Source: Galbibacter orientalis DSM 19592
GTDB lineage: Bacteria; Bacteroidota; Bacteroidia; Flavobacteriales; Flavobacteriaceae
Length of the DNA: 64,000 bases
Assembly (NCBI RefSeq): GCF_000260115.1
Contig: NZ_JH651379.1
Location: 1,616,501-1,680,500 of the forward strand
Direction: 5' to 3'
Part shown: one piece after another, positions 31,417 to 45,005 of the stretch
Numbering within the stretch: the stretch's first letter is position 1
How the letters are laid out: every line of letters starts with the position of its first letter
Notes under the pieces: generated by a model
Seen by the model: the letters and a program-made list of their open reading frames with translations, nothing else
Database searches by the model: none
Told to the model about the DNA's origin: nothing
Made by a program: the position numbers and the translations under genes

Positions 31417-31537
31417 GGGGTCTATTTTTTTATATTGATAAATAACTTTGGTAAAGATACAAGAATAAGCCGCTTTGATAAAAAATAATTTTCTTTACGA
31501 TGAGAAAAATAAATTATTTAAAGAGACGCAAACGATT

Positions 31538-31591
31538 GCTGCTAGCCCCGATTGCGCTAACTACCATGTAGTAGCAAAAGCGGGTAACAGC
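31538..31591 (+). repeat. Degenerate two-stem structured repeat
   Basis: GCTGCTAGCCC (31538-31548) can pair imperfectly with GGGTAACAGC (31582-31591); inside, GCTAACTAC (31556-31564) and GTAGTAGC (31568-31575) form a hairpin with loop CAT. The TAGCCCCGATTG start and AGCGGGTAACAGC end resemble a dispersed family I recall from Flavobacteria genomes. Only copy in the window. Confidence 0.5.
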
Positions 31592-31665
31592 GAAAGGGAA
31601 TAAGAAATTAAAAAAGGGCTCCAAATAAAAAAGTGTTAAACATTTTTCAGTTTCAATCTTATTCT

Positions 31666-31673
31666 TACATTTG
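31666..31673 (+). promoter_or_regulatory. -7 promoter box of metK
   Basis: TACATTTG matches TAnnTTTG. Transcription would start near 31679, exactly where the base-paired leader begins. Confidence 0.6.
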
Positions 31674-31678
31674 TACCC

Positions 31679-31799
31679 AGAATTTTGAGGAAAGATTTGA
31701 CTGATTGCCACCTCGTAAAAAAAGAGCTAAAGCAGTGATGAACTCCTTTAGACGCACCTGTCAAAATTCTTTCCCATTTAGAAGTTTAGAAATTACATT
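31679..31799 (+). promoter_or_regulatory. SAM-II-like riboswitch leader of metK
   Basis: The aptamer order matches SAM-II: P1 GAGG (31687-31690), GATTTG (31694-31699), P2 ACTG (31700-31703), ATTGC (31704-31708), P1' CCTC (31711-31714), GTAAAAA loop, GCTAAAG (31726-31732), P2' CAGT (31733-31736). GATTTG, TTGC and GCTAAAG are the SAM-II conserved blocks. An outer 10-bp stem, AGAATTTTGA (31679-31688) with TCAAAATTCT (31761-31770), overlaps the P1 strand and could be the alternative fold that switches metK. Confidence 0.82.
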
Positions 31800-33056
31800 A
31801 TGGCATATTTATTTACATCGGAGTCTGTTAGTGAAGGACATCCAGATAAAATTGCAGATCAAATAAGCGATGCGCTTTTAGACAACTTTTTGGCTTTTGA
31901 TCCAGAGAGTAAAGTTGCTTGCGAAACTTTAGTAACTACTGGGCAAGTAGTGCTTGCCGGAGAGGTAAAAAGCGCTACGTATTTAGACGTACAGTCTATT
32001 GCTCGTGAGGTTATTAATAAAATTGGATACACTAAAGGAGCGTATCAATTTAGTGGAGATTCTTGTGGAGTTATTTCGTTAATTCATGAGCAGTCTCAAG
32101 ACATTAACCAAGGGGTAGACAGGGCATCGAAAGAGGAGCAGGGTGCTGGAGACCAAGGGATGATGTTTGGGTATGCTACCAATGAAACCGAAAACTATAT
32201 GCCTTTGGCGTTAGATATTTCTCACAAATTATTAATGGGACTTGCAGATTTGCGTCGGGAAGAAAAGGAGATTACCTATTTACGTCCAGATGCAAAAGCA
32301 CAGGTTACTATTGAGTATTCAGATGATAATGTGCCGCAAAGAATAGATACCATTGTACTTTCTACGCAGCACGATCAATTTGATGCTGACGATGAGAAGA
32401 TGCTAACTCAAATTAAGAAAGACATTTTAGAAATCTTAATTCCAAGAGTAGTTAAGCAGTTGCCAAAATATGTTCAGGAGTTGTTTAATGATACTATTAA
32501 ATATCATATCAATCCAACCGGAAAATTTGTAATTGGTGGTCCTCATGGAGATAGCGGACTTACAGGAAGGAAAATTATTGTAGATACTTACGGTGGTAAA
32601 GGAGCTCATGGAGGCGGTGCTTTTAGTGGAAAAGATCCAAGTAAAGTAGACCGTAGTGCAGCATATGCTTCTCGCCATATTGCTAAAAACTTGGTGGCAG
32701 CAGGAGTTGCAGATGAGGTTTTAGTACAGGTAAGTTATGCTATTGGCGTGGTAGAGCCGACTTCTATTTTTGTAAATACGTATGGTACTTCTAAAGTAGG
32801 ATTGAGTGATGGGGAGATAGCCAAAAAAGTAGCTCAGTTGTTCGATATGCGTCCGTTTGCAATTGAAGAGCGTTTAAAATTGCGCAATCCAATATACTTA
32901 GAGTCTGCTGCATATGGGCATATGGGAAAACAACCTCGTACAGTTACAAAGGTTTTTGAATCTCCATACAACGGTAGAATTGAAAGAGAAGTTGAGCTTT
33001 TTACATGGGAAAAGTTGGACTTTATAGATAAAGTAAAAGAGAGTTTTTCGTTATAA
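31800..33056 (+). CDS. metK: S-adenosylmethionine synthetase
   Basis: 418 residues. Makes SAM from methionine and ATP; cytoplasmic. Motifs: [21 protein letters not shown] at the N-terminus, [12 protein letters not shown] (ATP-binding), and [20 protein letters not shown] (active-site loop). Slightly longer than the 384 of E. coli. Its product is the probable ligand of the leader upstream and of the two S-box leaders downstream, so the gene sits at the centre of the local feedback. Confidence 0.98.
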
Positions 33057-33284: not shown

Positions 33285-33402
33285 AGATGTTATCAAGAAA
33301 GGCGGAAGGAATAGACCTGAAGATGCCTTAGCAACCCTTTGTCTCGAGGAAACTCAGATTGAGAAGGTGCTACATTCTACCACGTAAGTGGATAGATAAC
33401 AA
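33285..33402 (+). promoter_or_regulatory. SAM-I (S-box) riboswitch before metY
   Basis: P1 is GTTATC (33289-33294) with GATAAC (33395-33400). Between them are the conserved S-box blocks: AAGAAAGGCGGAAGGA, GATGCCTTAGCAACC and AAGGTGCTACATTCTACC. A TACATTTTG near-match to the -7 box is at 33275-33283. Downstream, TAACAAGAA (33397-33405) pairs with TTCTTGTTA (33430-33438) and shares bases with P1, so it is a likely switching helix; no T tract follows it. Confidence 0.92.
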
Positions 33403-33487: not shown

Positions 33488-34768
33488 ATGAGTAAACAAA
33501 AATTTTCAACGGATGCACTTCATGCTGGGCATGATGTAAAAGCAAATGGTGGTACAAGAGCTGTGCCGATATACCAAACGTCTTCTTATGTTTTTAATAA
33601 CGCAGACCATGCTGCAAATTTATTCAACTTATCAGAGGCTGGATATATTTACACGAGGTTAAACAACCCAACAAACGATGTGTTGGAGCAACGTTTGGCT
33701 GCTTTAGATGATGGAATTGCCTCTGTGGTAACAGCCTCAGGAACGGCGGCTATTTCTACTGCTTTGTTGGTGTTGTTAAAGGCGGGAGACCATATTGTAG
33801 CTTCTAGTAGCTTGTATGGAGGAACGTATAATTTATTGAGCAACACACTTCCTAGGTTAGGTATTACAACCACATTTGTAGACCCAGATGATGCGGCAAA
33901 TTTTACAAATGCCGTACAAGAGAATACACGAGCCTTTTTTATAGAATCTTTGGGGAATCCAAAATTGGACGTGTTAGATATTAAATCGATTTCTGCGGAA
34001 GCAAAAAAAGCAGCACTGCCATTAATAGTAGATAATACAGTAGCTACCTCTTATTTGGTAAAACCTATAGAGCATGGAGCAAATATTGTTATTCATTCGC
34101 TAACTAAATATATCTGCGGTAATGGAACTTCACTTGGTGGAGTTATTGTAGATGCGGGTACTTTTAATTGGGGGAATGGTAAATTTCCAGAATTTACAGA
34201 GCCTTCTCCAAGTTATCATGGGTTAATTTATCATGATGTATTAAAAGAGGCTGCTTTTATAGCAAAAGTAAGAATAGAAGGTTTAAGAGATTTTGGAGGC
34301 GCGTTGAGTCCGTTAAATGCATTTCAAATTTTACAAGGATTAGAAACACTTCCTTTAAGAATAAAGAAACATAGCGAAAATGCATTGGAATTAGCGCAAT
34401 GGTTAGAAAAACAAGCAGCAGTAACTTGGGTAAATTATCCTGGGCTTGAAAATAATAAATATAAAAAATTAGCAGAAGTGTATCTTCCAGAAGGACAAAG
34501 CGGACTCGTAACTTTTGGAGTTAAGGGAGGTTTTGAATCGGCTAAAAAAGTAGCAGATAACACAAAAATATTTTCCCTACTTGCTAATATTGGCGATACA
34601 AAATCGCTAATTATTCATCCTTCAAGTACAACGCATCAGCAGTTAAATGAAGAGGAGCAGTTAGCGGCTGGAGTAACTACAGATTTAATTAGACTCTCAG
34701 TAGGATTAGAAGATATAGAAGACTTAAAGTCGGATTTAAAAGAAGCATTTAAACAGATAAAAGCATAA
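33488..34768 (+). CDS. metY: O-acetylhomoserine sulfhydrylase
   Basis: 426 residues. Makes homocysteine from O-acetylhomoserine and sulfide with PLP. The Schiff-base Lys is in HSLTKYICGNGTSLGG, and the N-terminal TDALHAGHD and YIYTRLNNPTNDVLEQRLA are typical of the Cys/Met metabolism family, MetY subgroup. It is the first gene after the S-box leader, and the fusion gene starts 4 bases after its stop, so both should fall under SAM control. Confidence 0.95.
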   Translation: MSKQKFSTDALHAGHDVKANGGTRAVPIYQTSSYVFNNADHAANLFNLSEAGYIYTRLNNPTNDVLEQRLAALDDGIASVVTASGTAAISTALLVLLKAGDHIVASSSLYGGTYNLLSNTLPRLGITTTFVDPDDAANFTNAVQENTRAFFIESLGNPKLDVLDIKSISAEAKKAALPLIVDNTVATSYLVKPIEHGANIVIHSLTKYICGNGTSLGGVIVDAGTFNWGNGKFPEFTEPSPSYHGLIYHDVLKEAAFIAKVRIEGLRDFGGALSPLNAFQILQGLETLPLRIKKHSENALELAQWLEKQAAVTWVNYPGLENNKYKKLAEVYLPEGQSGLVTFGVKGGFESAKKVADNTKIFSLLANIGDTKSLIIHPSSTTHQQLNEEEQLAAGVTTDLIRLSVGLEDIEDLKSDLKEAFKQIKA

Positions 34769-34772
34769 AACG

Positions 34773-37700
34773 TTGAAAAACGAATTGTTACATATTACAC
34801 TCAATCAGTACACAACGCTAAGCGGAGTTACGCAAGATTTAAATTTATCATACCAATTGTTTGGTAAGCCATTACATACAGCGCCTATTGTAATGGTGAA
34901 TCATGCACTTACAGGGAATTCTGATGTTAGTGGAGAGAACGGTTGGTGGAAAGATTTAATAGGAGACGGAAAAGCTATTGATACAAATAATTATACGGTA
35001 TTATCATTTAATATTCCAGGGAATGGTTATGATGGTTTTGTGATCGATAATTATAAAGATTTTGTGGCTAGAGATGTGGCAAACATCTTTTTGTTAGGTC
35101 TTGAAGTCTTAAAAATAGATGAATTGTATGCCTTGATTGGAGGTTCTCTAGGTGGCGGAATTGCATGGGAAATGGTGGCGTTAAAACCTGCTATTACCGA
35201 ACATTTTATTCCTGTGGCAACCGATTGGAAGTCGACAGATTGGCTTATTGCAAATTGCCAAATTCAGGAGCAATTTTTGGTGAATTCTAAAAATCCTGTC
35301 CACGATGCTCGAATGCACGCTATGTTGTGTTACCGAACGCCAGAATCTTTTAAATCGCGTTTCCAACGAAGCACTAATGAAGAATTGCAAGTGTTTAATG
35401 TGGAAAGTTGGTTGTTGCATCATGGAAATAAACTTCAAGAGCGATTTCAGCTTTCGGCTTATAAATTAATGAATCAGTTACTAAAAACTATTGATGTTAC
35501 CCGAGGAAGACCAGAGCATTTTAGTGTATTAGAAGCTATAGATGCTAATGTACATATTGTAGGGGTGAGCTCAGATTTGTTTTTTACTGCTGAAGAAAAT
35601 AGAGAAACGTATAAGCAATTGGCGCAATCTAGCGACCGTGTGCGCTATGGAGAAGTAGTTTCGGTACACGGGCACGATGCATTTTTGATAGAATATGAAC
35701 AATTAGAAAAAATAATAGGGGGCATTTTTGAATCTGCTCTTAAAGATAATAAGATGAAAGTATTAAAGTTTGGAGGGAAATCCTTAGCCAATGGTAAAGG
35801 AATCAATAATGTAGTTGAAATAATTGAAAACAAGGTAAAAGAAGGAGAGAAAATCACCGTAGTAGTTTCTGCTAGGAATAACGCAACCAATGAGTTGGAG
35901 AGTATTTTGGAAACGGCGGCAGATGGGCAGGATTACGAGCATTTATTTGATGCCTTTAAGAAATATCAAACAGAAGATTATAAAAATGCCAATTTATCTG
36001 CTGAGTTTGATAGATTAGAAAAACTGTTCTCGGGAGTGAGTTTGCTTGGAGATTATAGTGTAAAAATTAAAGATGAGGTTTTAGCACAAGGCGAAATTAT
36101 TTCTGCTAAATTAATCACCAATATTTTAAAAGAAAAAGGAGTCAATGCCAATTTTACAGACTCTCGGGAGCTTATAAAAACAGATGAGAAATTTGGTGAC
36201 GCACAACCCTTAGAAAAAATTTCAAAAGAAAATGTTTTAAAACATTTTGCAAAACATAATGGAACAACCGTTAATATTGTTACTGGATTTATTGGCTCTA
36301 ATAAAAATAACGAAACCACTACTTTAGGAAGAAATGGAAGTAATTATACAGCTTCTTTATTGGCTAATTTTTTAGATGCTGGAGAATTGCAAAGTTTTAC
36401 GCATGTAGATGGTATTTTTACTGCCAATCCAGATTTGGTGCCAAGTGCACAACGCATCGAAGAATTGTCGTTTAATGAGGCTAATGAGCTAGCAAATTTT
36501 GGTGCTACTATTTTACATGCAAAAACAATTATTCCGTTAATTGAAAAAAATATTCCACTTCGAATTTTAAATACTTTTAATCACGATAATAAAGGAACGC
36601 TTATTACTGCTAATCCTAAAAAGGAAGGAATAAAATCACTTTCAGTTTTAGAAAACGTAGCCTTAGTAAATTTAGAAGGACGCGGACTATTAGGAAAAGC
36701 AGGAGTAGATGCTAGAATTTTTAATGCTCTAGGGAAAAAAGACATCAGTGTAAGTATTATTTCACAAGGGTCTTCCGAGCGTGGAATTGGTTTGGTAGTA
36801 AATGCAAAAGATGCTACCGAAGCTATGATTTCTTTGGAGAAAGAATTTGAAAATGATTTTTACTCTAAAGACGTTAATAAAATTTCTGTGGTAGATGATG
36901 TTTCTGTAATTTCTATCATAGGTCAAGATTTGAGTACGTTCCATAAGCCTTATAATGCGTTGATTAAAAACCAGGTAATTCCTATCCTTTTTAATAATAC
37001 GGTAACAGGGAAAAATGTGAGTTTAGTAGTTAAAAAATCTGAACTTCATAAAGCATTAAATGTTATTCATGGAGAGATTTTTGAAATCTGTAAGAAAATA
37101 AACATAGCTATTTTCGGACATGGATTGGTAGGAGGAACTTTAATCGATCAAATTCTTACTTCAGCAGCTAATATAGAAGAGCGTAAACATTTAAAACTGA
37201 ATATTTTTGCAGTTTCTAATTCAAGAAAATTAGTACTTTCAAAAGAAGGCATTAATTCAGATTGGAAAAAAGAAATAGAGAATAGTAACCAACCTGCAAC
37301 TATTAAAGATGTAATTGCATTTACGAAAGCAAATCATCTAGAAAATTTAATTGCTATAGATAATACGGCAAGTAAAGATTTTGTTGCAAATTATACCACT
37401 TTGGTGGAAAATGGCTTTGATTTAGTGTCGTCTAACAAAATTGCAAATACCCTCGATTTTAAATTTTATAAAGAGTTGAGAAGTTTACTTGATAAAAATC
37501 AGAAGCAATATTTATATGAAACTAATGTTGGAGCTGGGCTTCCTTTAATAGATACAATTCGTATTTTACATTTATCAGGAGAAAATATCACTAGAATTAG
37601 AGGTGTATTTTCTGGAACTTTAAGTTATTTATTCAATCAATTTTCTTCAGAAGAAAAAACTTTTAATGAGATTCTAAAAGATACTATTGATAAAGGATTT

Positions 37701-38168
37701 ACAGAGCCAGACCCAAGAGAAGACCTTAACGGAAACGATGTTGGTAGGAAGTTGTTAATTTTAGCTCGTGAATTGGATTTGAAAAATGAATTTGAAGATG
37801 TTAATATTCAGAATTTAGTGCCCGATGGATTAAGAGATAAAGAAGTGCCAGAATTTTTACAGAGTTTAGAGGCGTTTAACGCTCCATACCAAGAAATTAA
37901 AGATAATCAAGAAGAAGGAAATGTACTTCGTTATGTTGGAGATTTACATGGAGATTTGCAGCAAGATAAAGGAATTTTAGATGTTAAGTTGGTGTCTGTC
38001 CCAGCAGACAGTGTTTTAGGACAAGTAAAAGGGGCTGATTCTATTTTTGAAATTTATACAGAATCTTACGGAGACCGGCCAATTGTAATTCAAGGAGCAG
38101 GAGCAGGAGCAGCAGTTACCGCTAGAGGTGTTTTTGGAGATATTCTTAAATTAGCCGAAAGAGGGTAA
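34773..38168 (+). CDS. Three-part fusion: homoserine O-acetyltransferase, aspartokinase and homoserine dehydrogenase
   Basis: 1131 residues in one uninterrupted frame. Residues 1-325 are a MetX-type alpha/beta hydrolase with a visible triad: Ser125 (GGSLGGG), Asp268 (VSSDLFF) and His301 (GHDAFL). From Met328 it is a ThrA-type enzyme: aspartokinase (KFGGKSLANGKG), ACT regulatory repeats about 630-760, and homoserine dehydrogenase from about 770 (IFGHGLVGG, SSNKIAN, ETNVGAGLPLIDTI). It would phosphorylate aspartate, reduce aspartate semialdehyde to homoserine and acetylate homoserine, feeding metY directly upstream. The MetX part is shorter than stand-alone MetX (about 350). Confidence 0.93.
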   Translation: MKNELLHITLNQYTTLSGVTQDLNLSYQLFGKPLHTAPIVMVNHALTGNSDVSGENGWWKDLIGDGKAIDTNNYTVLSFNIPGNGYDGFVIDNYKDFVARDVANIFLLGLEVLKIDELYALIGGSLGGGIAWEMVALKPAITEHFIPVATDWKSTDWLIANCQIQEQFLVNSKNPVHDARMHAMLCYRTPESFKSRFQRSTNEELQVFNVESWLLHHGNKLQERFQLSAYKLMNQLLKTIDVTRGRPEHFSVLEAIDANVHIVGVSSDLFFTAEENRETYKQLAQSSDRVRYGEVVSVHGHDAFLIEYEQLEKIIGGIFESALKDNKMKVLKFGGKSLANGKGINNVVEIIENKVKEGEKITVVVSARNNATNELESILETAADGQDYEHLFDAFKKYQTEDYKNANLSAEFDRLEKLFSGVSLLGDYSVKIKDEVLAQGEIISAKLITNILKEKGVNANFTDSRELIKTDEKFGDAQPLEKISKENVLKHFAKHNGTTVNIVTGFIGSNKNNETTTLGRNGSNYTASLLANFLDAGELQSFTHVDGIFTANPDLVPSAQRIEELSFNEANELANFGATILHAKTIIPLIEKNIPLRILNTFNHDNKGTLITANPKKEGIKSLSVLENVALVNLEGRGLLGKAGVDARIFNALGKKDISVSIISQGSSERGIGLVVNAKDATEAMISLEKEFENDFYSKDVNKISVVDDVSVISIIGQDLSTFHKPYNALIKNQVIPILFNNTVTGKNVSLVVKKSELHKALNVIHGEIFEICKKINIAIFGHGLVGGTLIDQILTSAANIEERKHLKLNIFAVSNSRKLVLSKEGINSDWKKEIENSNQPATIKDVIAFTKANHLENLIAIDNTASKDFVANYTTLVENGFDLVSSNKIANTLDFKFYKELRSLLDKNQKQYLYETNVGAGLPLIDTIRILHLSGENITRIRGVFSGTLSYLFNQFSSEEKTFNEILKDTIDKGFTEPDPREDLNGNDVGRKLLILARELDLKNEFEDVNIQNLVPDGLRDKEVPEFLQSLEAFNAPYQEIKDNQEEGNVLRYVGDLHGDLQQDKGILDVKLVSVPADSVLGQVKGADSIFEIYTESYGDRPIVIQGAGAGAAVTARGVFGDILKLAERG

Positions 38169-44857: not shown

Positions 44858-45005
44858 ACGTTATCAAGAAAGGTGTAGGGATTAGACCCGCAGAAGCCTT
44901 AGCAACCCTTTATGTACTTCAATTAACAAGGAAGTTTTCTTAGAGAAGGTGCTACGTTCTACCGTAGATAATACGGACAGATAACAAAAAGACTTCCTTT
45001 TTTTT
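44858..45005 (+). promoter_or_regulatory. SAM-I (S-box) riboswitch with terminator platform before metH
   Basis: P1 is GTTATC (44860-44865) with GATAAC (44980-44985), enclosing S-box blocks AAGAAAGGTGTAGGGA, GAAGCCTTAGCAACC and AGAAGGTGCTACGTTCTACC. Downstream, ACTTCCTT (44992-44999), followed by a run of eight T (44998-45005), can pair with AAGGAAGT (44928-44935), which is also needed for the aptamer's P3 stem (ACTTC with GAAGT). This looks like a terminator-type expression platform. Confidence 0.92.

Follow-up and report, generated by a model that had tools for sequence, protein, structure and literature searches.

A long-loop SAM-II riboswitch in front of metK in Galbibacter orientalis and a recurring leader strand antisense to its aptamer

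The question that this locus raises is what kind of RNA precedes metK in this flavobacterium and by what means such an RNA would control the gene. In the window, by which we mean the whole stretch of 64,000 nucleotides of Galbibacter orientalis DSM 19592 that was analysed, metK occupies 31800-33056 on the + strand, as do all the leader features described below, and codes for an S-adenosylmethionine synthetase of 418 amino acids with the Pfam domains PF00438, PF02772, and PF02773. The nearest named MetK relatives, in a list that may omit the nearest records, were from flavobacteria such as Euzebyella (87% identity) and Flagellimonas (86%). When the whole window was scanned with cmscan, RF01726, the SAM-II "long loop" family, matched at 31681-31740 with 68 bits against a cut-off of 44, and because the model is matched over its full length (positions 1-60 of 60) with an E value of 5.3e-11 over the whole window, a chance match is excluded. 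The aptamer ends at 31740 and 59 bases lie between it and the metK start. Every block listed in the preliminary description, P1-GATTTG-P2-ATTGC-P1'-GCTAAAG-P2', was found in place: the 5' strand of P1, GAGG (31687-31690), has its partner CCTC, the 3' strand supported by covariation, at 31711-31714; the L1 segment of the conserved core, GATTTG (31694-31699), is seen both in the RF01726 match and in the leader alignment; the 5' strand of P2, ACTG (31700-31703), is followed by the ATTGC block (31704-31708), read from the sequence; and GCTAAAG (31726-31732) runs into the pseudoknot partner of ACTG, the 3' strand CAGT (31733-31736). The alphaproteobacterial SAM-II of RF00521 presumably shares this block order (P1, L1, P2, P1', GCTAAAG, P2'). 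RF00521 (SAM_alpha) had been named beforehand as the model for this RNA, and that choice failed, as it gave only 13.5 bits at the aptamer, under its cut-off of 36, and was rejected as the aptamer's family; a search of the G. orientalis genome with RF00521 gave no match and control genomes were likewise without one. With 13.5 bits for RF00521 and 68 bits for RF01726, the aptamer matches the form known from Bacteroidetes, not the alphaproteobacterial model. Judged by its sequence, the RNA before metK is a real SAM-II riboswitch of the Bacteroidota long-loop type, and SAM binding by an aptamer of this type is presumed here from its family. In relatives (e.g. L031, L042, and L057) the loop preceding GCTAAA is often longer by tens of bases and is partly self-complementary by eye.

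Upstream of the aptamer, TACATTTG at 31666-31673 fits TAnnTTTG, which we take to be the -7 box consensus of Bacteroidota promoters, and as a candidate promoter it would place the transcript start about 10 bases before P1. TTTG boxes were seen by eye, uncounted, at a similar position in relatives. A sigma-70 scan found no promoter-like site, and the Bacteroidota promoter type is outside the model of that scan.

In the predicted fold of the window leader the aptamer itself is absent and a long hairpin takes its place, in which the aptamer stretch GGAAAGATTTGAC at 31689-31701 would be captured by a strand antisense to it, GTCAAAATTCTTTCC at 31760-31774, that consists of GTCAAA, a 2-base bulge AT, and TCTTTCC. 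For the window, a duplex energy of -16.8 kcal/mol was predicted between the leader and the aptamer 5' half, and CTTTAG at 31746-31751, the complement of CTAAAG in the aptamer (31727-31732), could possibly form the inner part of the modelled hairpin. The window leader overall was no stabler than its shuffles (z 0.16) and one sequence proves nothing, therefore the leaders of relatives were gathered. Searching 213 loci with an aptamer pattern gave 173 matches and 40 misses, the misses being three loci fetched as covariance-model matches (L197, L202, and L212) and 37 named MetK loci. The motif placed metK at most 300 bases away in 168 of the 173 matches; one of these (L104) was removed by a 160-base limit, which left 167 leaders, the window's own included, with metK 25-160 bases downstream of the aptamer; these are unique by exact sequence only and one species may recur with slightly different sequences. 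The five loci with no metK by motif were L004, L116, L119, L134, and L135, and L116 and L119 were recognised as metK by eye. Among the pattern-caught loci that had been fetched with RF01726, metK lay within 300 bases by motif in 125 of 130 and, with L116 and L119, by eye in two more. From the 167 leaders a 51-row alignment was made of those that have CAAAT in the leader or belong to six named genus members, with the third loop at most 12 bases and the leader at most 72 bases.

In these 51 aligned leaders 97.0% of the P1/P2 cells were paired, in keeping with the GAGG/CCTC and ACTG/CAGT stems proposed earlier, and both sides had changed in five of the eight pairs. The covariation score of P1/P2 was 0.141 compared to 0.061 when shuffled, a level reached by 0/500 shuffles; the compensatory changes for which the preliminary description had pointed to the metK leaders of relatives are therefore present. 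The leaders had been retrieved with the RF01726 model or by a pattern in which the inner P1/P2 letters are set (up to three substitutions being allowed). Since both favour paired inner letters, the weight lies with the outer pairs of P1 and that of P2: the two outer P1 pairs were standard in 162 and 160 of the 167 leaders, the second of them being A-T in 136 and T-A in 24, and the outer P2 pair was weaker, standard in 105 of 153. That a SAM-II-type riboswitch precedes metK in this flavobacterium is thus upheld by the RF01726 match, the MetK domains, and the covariation.

The part of the earlier interpretation that did not stand is its novelty, namely that this would be a notable extension past the Alphaproteobacteria. 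A match to RF01726 at E <= 0.001 was found in 185 of 189 Flavobacteriaceae genomes (181 above the cut-off), the individual loci being known among the matches listed, and in 7/7 genomes of the genus, 53/60 genomes of relatives, and 15 of 118 genomes sampled across the phylum (14 above the cut-off). All of these tallies count the window's own genome, and the family and phylum tallies hold genomes at least 90% complete only. The aptamer is thus near-universal in the family and sparse outside it. SAM-II in Bacteroidetes was already on record in 2007 (PMC2258182), and RF01726 itself was reported as 'SAM-II long loops' from Bacteroidetes and marine samples, including in Table 1, by Weinberg et al. 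in 2010 (PMC2864571). The aptamer is ordinary in family, phylum, and gene, one more case of a known list, and it is the recurring anti-aptamer strand that is the less expected part and worth following.

In the 167 metK leaders, the aptamer 5' half paired with the downstream leader beyond dinucleotide shuffles with a mean z of -2.16, compared to -0.09 in the reversed-query control, and the z of the window's own pairing was -3.0. Leader by leader, p<0.05 was reached in 97 and p<0.01 in 47 of the 167, and in the genus three of seven leaders (L007, L017, and L022) missed p<0.05. The mean z was -2.2 in the 125 leaders fetched with RF01726 and -2.0 in the 42 fetched through MetK. When query regions were compared, the mean z was -1.97 for the aptamer 5' half and -0.13 to -0.47 for other regions; pairing of the whole aptamer 3' segment was weakly enriched (mean z -0.72 compared to -0.23 in its reversed control). 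The same was seen at the level of short words, since CAAAT, which is complementary to ATTTG, occurred in 78 of the 167 leaders (24 expected), GCAATC, complementary to GATTGC, in 29 (1.7 expected), and TTTAG within the first 45 leader bases in 53 (11 expected in shuffles). Minimum-energy folds in which 10 or more bases of the aptamer 5' half pair with sequence downstream of the aptamer were obtained for 139/167 leaders compared to 81/167 with shuffled leaders.

The leader also fits its own aptamer better than that of another genome. The energy of own aptamer with own leader was -15.0 kcal/mol and that with permuted aptamers was -13.05 (sd 0.16), with 0/2000 permutations reaching the former. In a swap test between disjoint nearest pairs, chosen by the first part of MetK, having different aptamers, and aimed at limiting shared ancestry, the own combination was better in 24 of the 39 close pairs, worse in 14, and tied in one (p 0.0026); over all pairs it was better in 57 of 83, worse in 25, and tied in one (p 2e-7). 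In the 51-row alignment the ten-pair anti-aptamer helix was 85.9% paired compared to at most 50.2% when slid, and its covariation was 0.158 compared to 0.111 in a shuffle control that ignores kinship (0/500). As the rows were chosen mostly for CAAAT, which favours the helix, the independent columns are those outside this word, and the two strongest covarying column pairs lie there: columns 18-114 hold AU in 26 rows, GC in 11, GU in 2, UG in 1, and other combinations in 11, and columns 19-113 hold GC in 36, GU in 11, AU in 3, and another combination in 1. The Rfam consensus leaves columns 18 and 19 unpaired, and covariation there is therefore evidence for the anti-aptamer helix. The outermost pair, 17-115, was unpaired in 25 of the 51 rows. 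Where ATTTG and CAAAT are both present (78 leaders), covariation was found two positions before ATTTG (0/5000) and one position before it (5/5000), the third position out was without covariation (2782/5000), and the position after ATTTG was weak (358/5000). RNAalifold picked the aptamer hairpin from the 51-row alignment and not the anti-aptamer helix, which is compatible with two mutually exclusive states and lends no support. As far as aligned sequences can tell, these data demonstrate a leader strand that is antisense to the aptamer core, is found again in relatives, and covaries with that core.

Because this complementarity exceeds that of shuffles, fits the own aptamer better, and covaries, a toggle between the pseudoknot and an anti-aptamer helix is the most likely explanation. 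When SAM is low, the leader strand at 31760-31774 would pair with the aptamer core at 31689-31701, by which the aptamer would be dissolved and metK expressed; when SAM is high, the ligand would stabilise the pseudoknot and the leader strand would be released. In a less secure last step, repression might come about through the freed, unstructured, C-rich and G-poor strand and not through a hidden Shine-Dalgarno sequence. We give the whole explanation, that of a SAM-II long-loop switch with an anti-aptamer toggle that exerts feedback control on metK, a probability of about 0.72.

This leads to the question of the output step. An intrinsic terminator was rejected as the output since a simple consensus scan of the + strand at 31500-31900 found no terminator-like site. 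When the aptamer was masked as a stand-in for the SAM-bound state, the unpairedness of the leader, from the aptamer end to -20, rose from 0.36 to 0.60, and the leader alone was no more structured than its shuffles (mean local fold z -0.16 in 167 leaders). The excess of C over G per 50 bases was +5.26 in the 167 SAM-II metK leaders compared to +0.17 in 201 other leaders, and it was +2.47 in 36 metK leaders in which the pattern recognised no SAM-II, namely the named loci missed by it minus L037. This excess is partly a by-product, because the strand is antisense to a purine-rich aptamer. An extra GAC...GTC hairpin that would hold the freed strand is visible in L025 and L150 and was rejected as not general, given the mean z of -0.16; GAC occurred at most 25 bases before GTCAAA in 24 of 48 cases (15 expected). 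As the freed strand would be unstructured, C-rich, and G-poor, Rho-dependent termination is the first guess, and a Rho-loading site uncovered by SAM fits both the composition and the sign, SAM being expected to repress metK. Rho loading with premature termination is accordingly our first choice, at somewhat less than even odds, reduced translation initiation is the second and a serious contender, and transcript decay or something else comes third. That the Flavobacteriaceae have a SAM-II platform unlike those described elsewhere, in which an antisense strand freed by SAM is a Rho-loading site that controls metK, we propose tentatively.

A real anti-aptamer helix with a translational output, in which the SAM-released strand would pair with or crowd the start region, is possible though rather unlikely. 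According to PMC6847099, mRNA structure and upstream A-rich sequence tune translation in Flavobacterium, and the leaders studied here are rich in A from -16 to -4. Against this, the predicted unpairedness of the start region (-20 to +20) was equal between the two states, 0.548 compared to 0.551 (p 0.52, n=167), and base pairing between the leader and either the start region or the first 90 coding bases was near the level of shuffles (mean z -0.30 for the start region); on these grounds hiding of the start codon was rejected. It is improbable that, after the manner of the Sargasso Sea metX RNA, the ligand-bound pseudoknot covers the ribosome-binding site directly and the antisense strand is incidental. 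For the best-studied SAM-II RNA the published explanation is direct occlusion of the Shine-Dalgarno sequence (PMC10907184, PMC9373788), with terminators as the other output predicted for SAM-II (PMC9373788, PMC2258182). Here, however, 63 bases separate the end of the P2 3' strand (31736) from the start codon, so the ribosome-binding site is not inside the pseudoknot; this distance alone is not decisive because for a SAM-II of Sinorhizobium meliloti an effect on translation at a distance of 74 nucleotides downstream, by way of a Shine-Dalgarno sequence, has been reported (PMC9373788). Bacteroidetes mRNAs are described as lacking Shine-Dalgarno sequences (PMC6847099), so direct occlusion of such a sequence cannot apply as such, and the results of the shuffles, swaps, and covariation do not make the antisense strand look incidental. 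That the complementarity is an effect of composition or of shared ancestry, with no functional helix, likewise carries little probability: a purine-rich aptamer and a pyrimidine-rich leader are common to these related species and 70 of the 167 leaders are not significant singly, but the dinucleotide shuffles, the reversed query, and the swaps between disjoint nearest relatives were meant as controls for this. Least probable of all is a SAM-activated switch in which the anti-aptamer hairpin is a terminator or roadblock relieved by SAM, since, although the hairpin is predicted without ligand and U-rich sequence follows it in some relatives (L059, by eye), the window hairpin has no U tract after it and activation of a SAM synthetase by its own product has, from general knowledge, the wrong sign.

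Returning to the toggle between pseudoknot and anti-aptamer helix, the nearest known system is the 'SAM-II long loops' RNA, which the window aptamer resembles in its full-length 68-bit match and in its phylum; an anti-aptamer platform is absent from the main-text passages on that RNA, and the paper places details in its supplement (PMC2864571). In the titles, abstract openings, and main-text passages searched, no anti-aptamer platform is described for Bacteroidota SAM-II; the main text of a Flavobacterium psychrophilum transcriptome study (PMC9723704) has 0 occurrences of 'SAM-II' and of 'metK', and 'metK' occurs 0 times in the text of PMC7366714. The metZ and metA SAM-II RNAs of S. meliloti are alike in that an aptamer is combined with alternative downstream structures, and that of metZ is predicted to switch transcription; they differ in their reported outputs, through an intrinsic terminator for metZ and through a Shine-Dalgarno sequence for metA, neither of which was seen in the window leader (PMC9373788). 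The possible import of this concerns how riboswitches act in a phylum without Shine-Dalgarno mRNAs: the two SAM-II outputs described elsewhere, a Shine-Dalgarno sequence in the pseudoknot and an intrinsic terminator (PMC10907184, PMC9373788, PMC2258182), are not visible here, and a recurring, covarying anti-aptamer strand is a concrete and easily tested alternative. If the Rho reading is true, a phylum without Shine-Dalgarno sequences would control metK by Rho and not by a hidden ribosome-binding site.

The methionine gene cluster of the window contains a second SAM-sensing class in addition to SAM-II. SAM-I (S-box, RF00162) was found at 33287-33402 (70.9 bits), before a PLP enzyme of Cys/Met metabolism (33488), and at 44858-44987 (68 bits), before a homocysteine S-methyltransferase (45087); it is like the SAM-II RNA in sensing SAM and in its place on neighbouring methionine genes, and unlike it in aptamer and covariance model. 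Between these lies a single ORF of 1131 amino acids (34773-38168) with alpha/beta hydrolase, amino acid kinase, ACT, and homoserine dehydrogenase domains, the alpha/beta hydrolase domain of which appears to be MetX-like. As of 2007, according to PMC2258182, no one species was known with both SAM-I and SAM-II; in the 60 genomes of relatives SAM-I was found in 44, SAM-II in 53, and both in 43. In a 1.9-Mb genome (G010) SAM-I was not found, one of its SAM-II RNAs (L004, match at 1501-1560) precedes a gene whose start resembles that of the window's enzyme at 33488, and its other SAM-II (L134) precedes a gene that the motif does not identify as metK. At least 8 of the 60 genomes (G011, G015, G019, G033, G046, G049, G056, and G058) have a SAM-I and a SAM-II in divergent orientation, one on each strand, separated by no more than about 350 bases. 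Finally, directly after the second SAM-I of the window, CTTCCTTTTTTTT at 44985-45005 is by eye complementary to AAGGAAG in the loop of that aptamer and is possibly a terminator arm.
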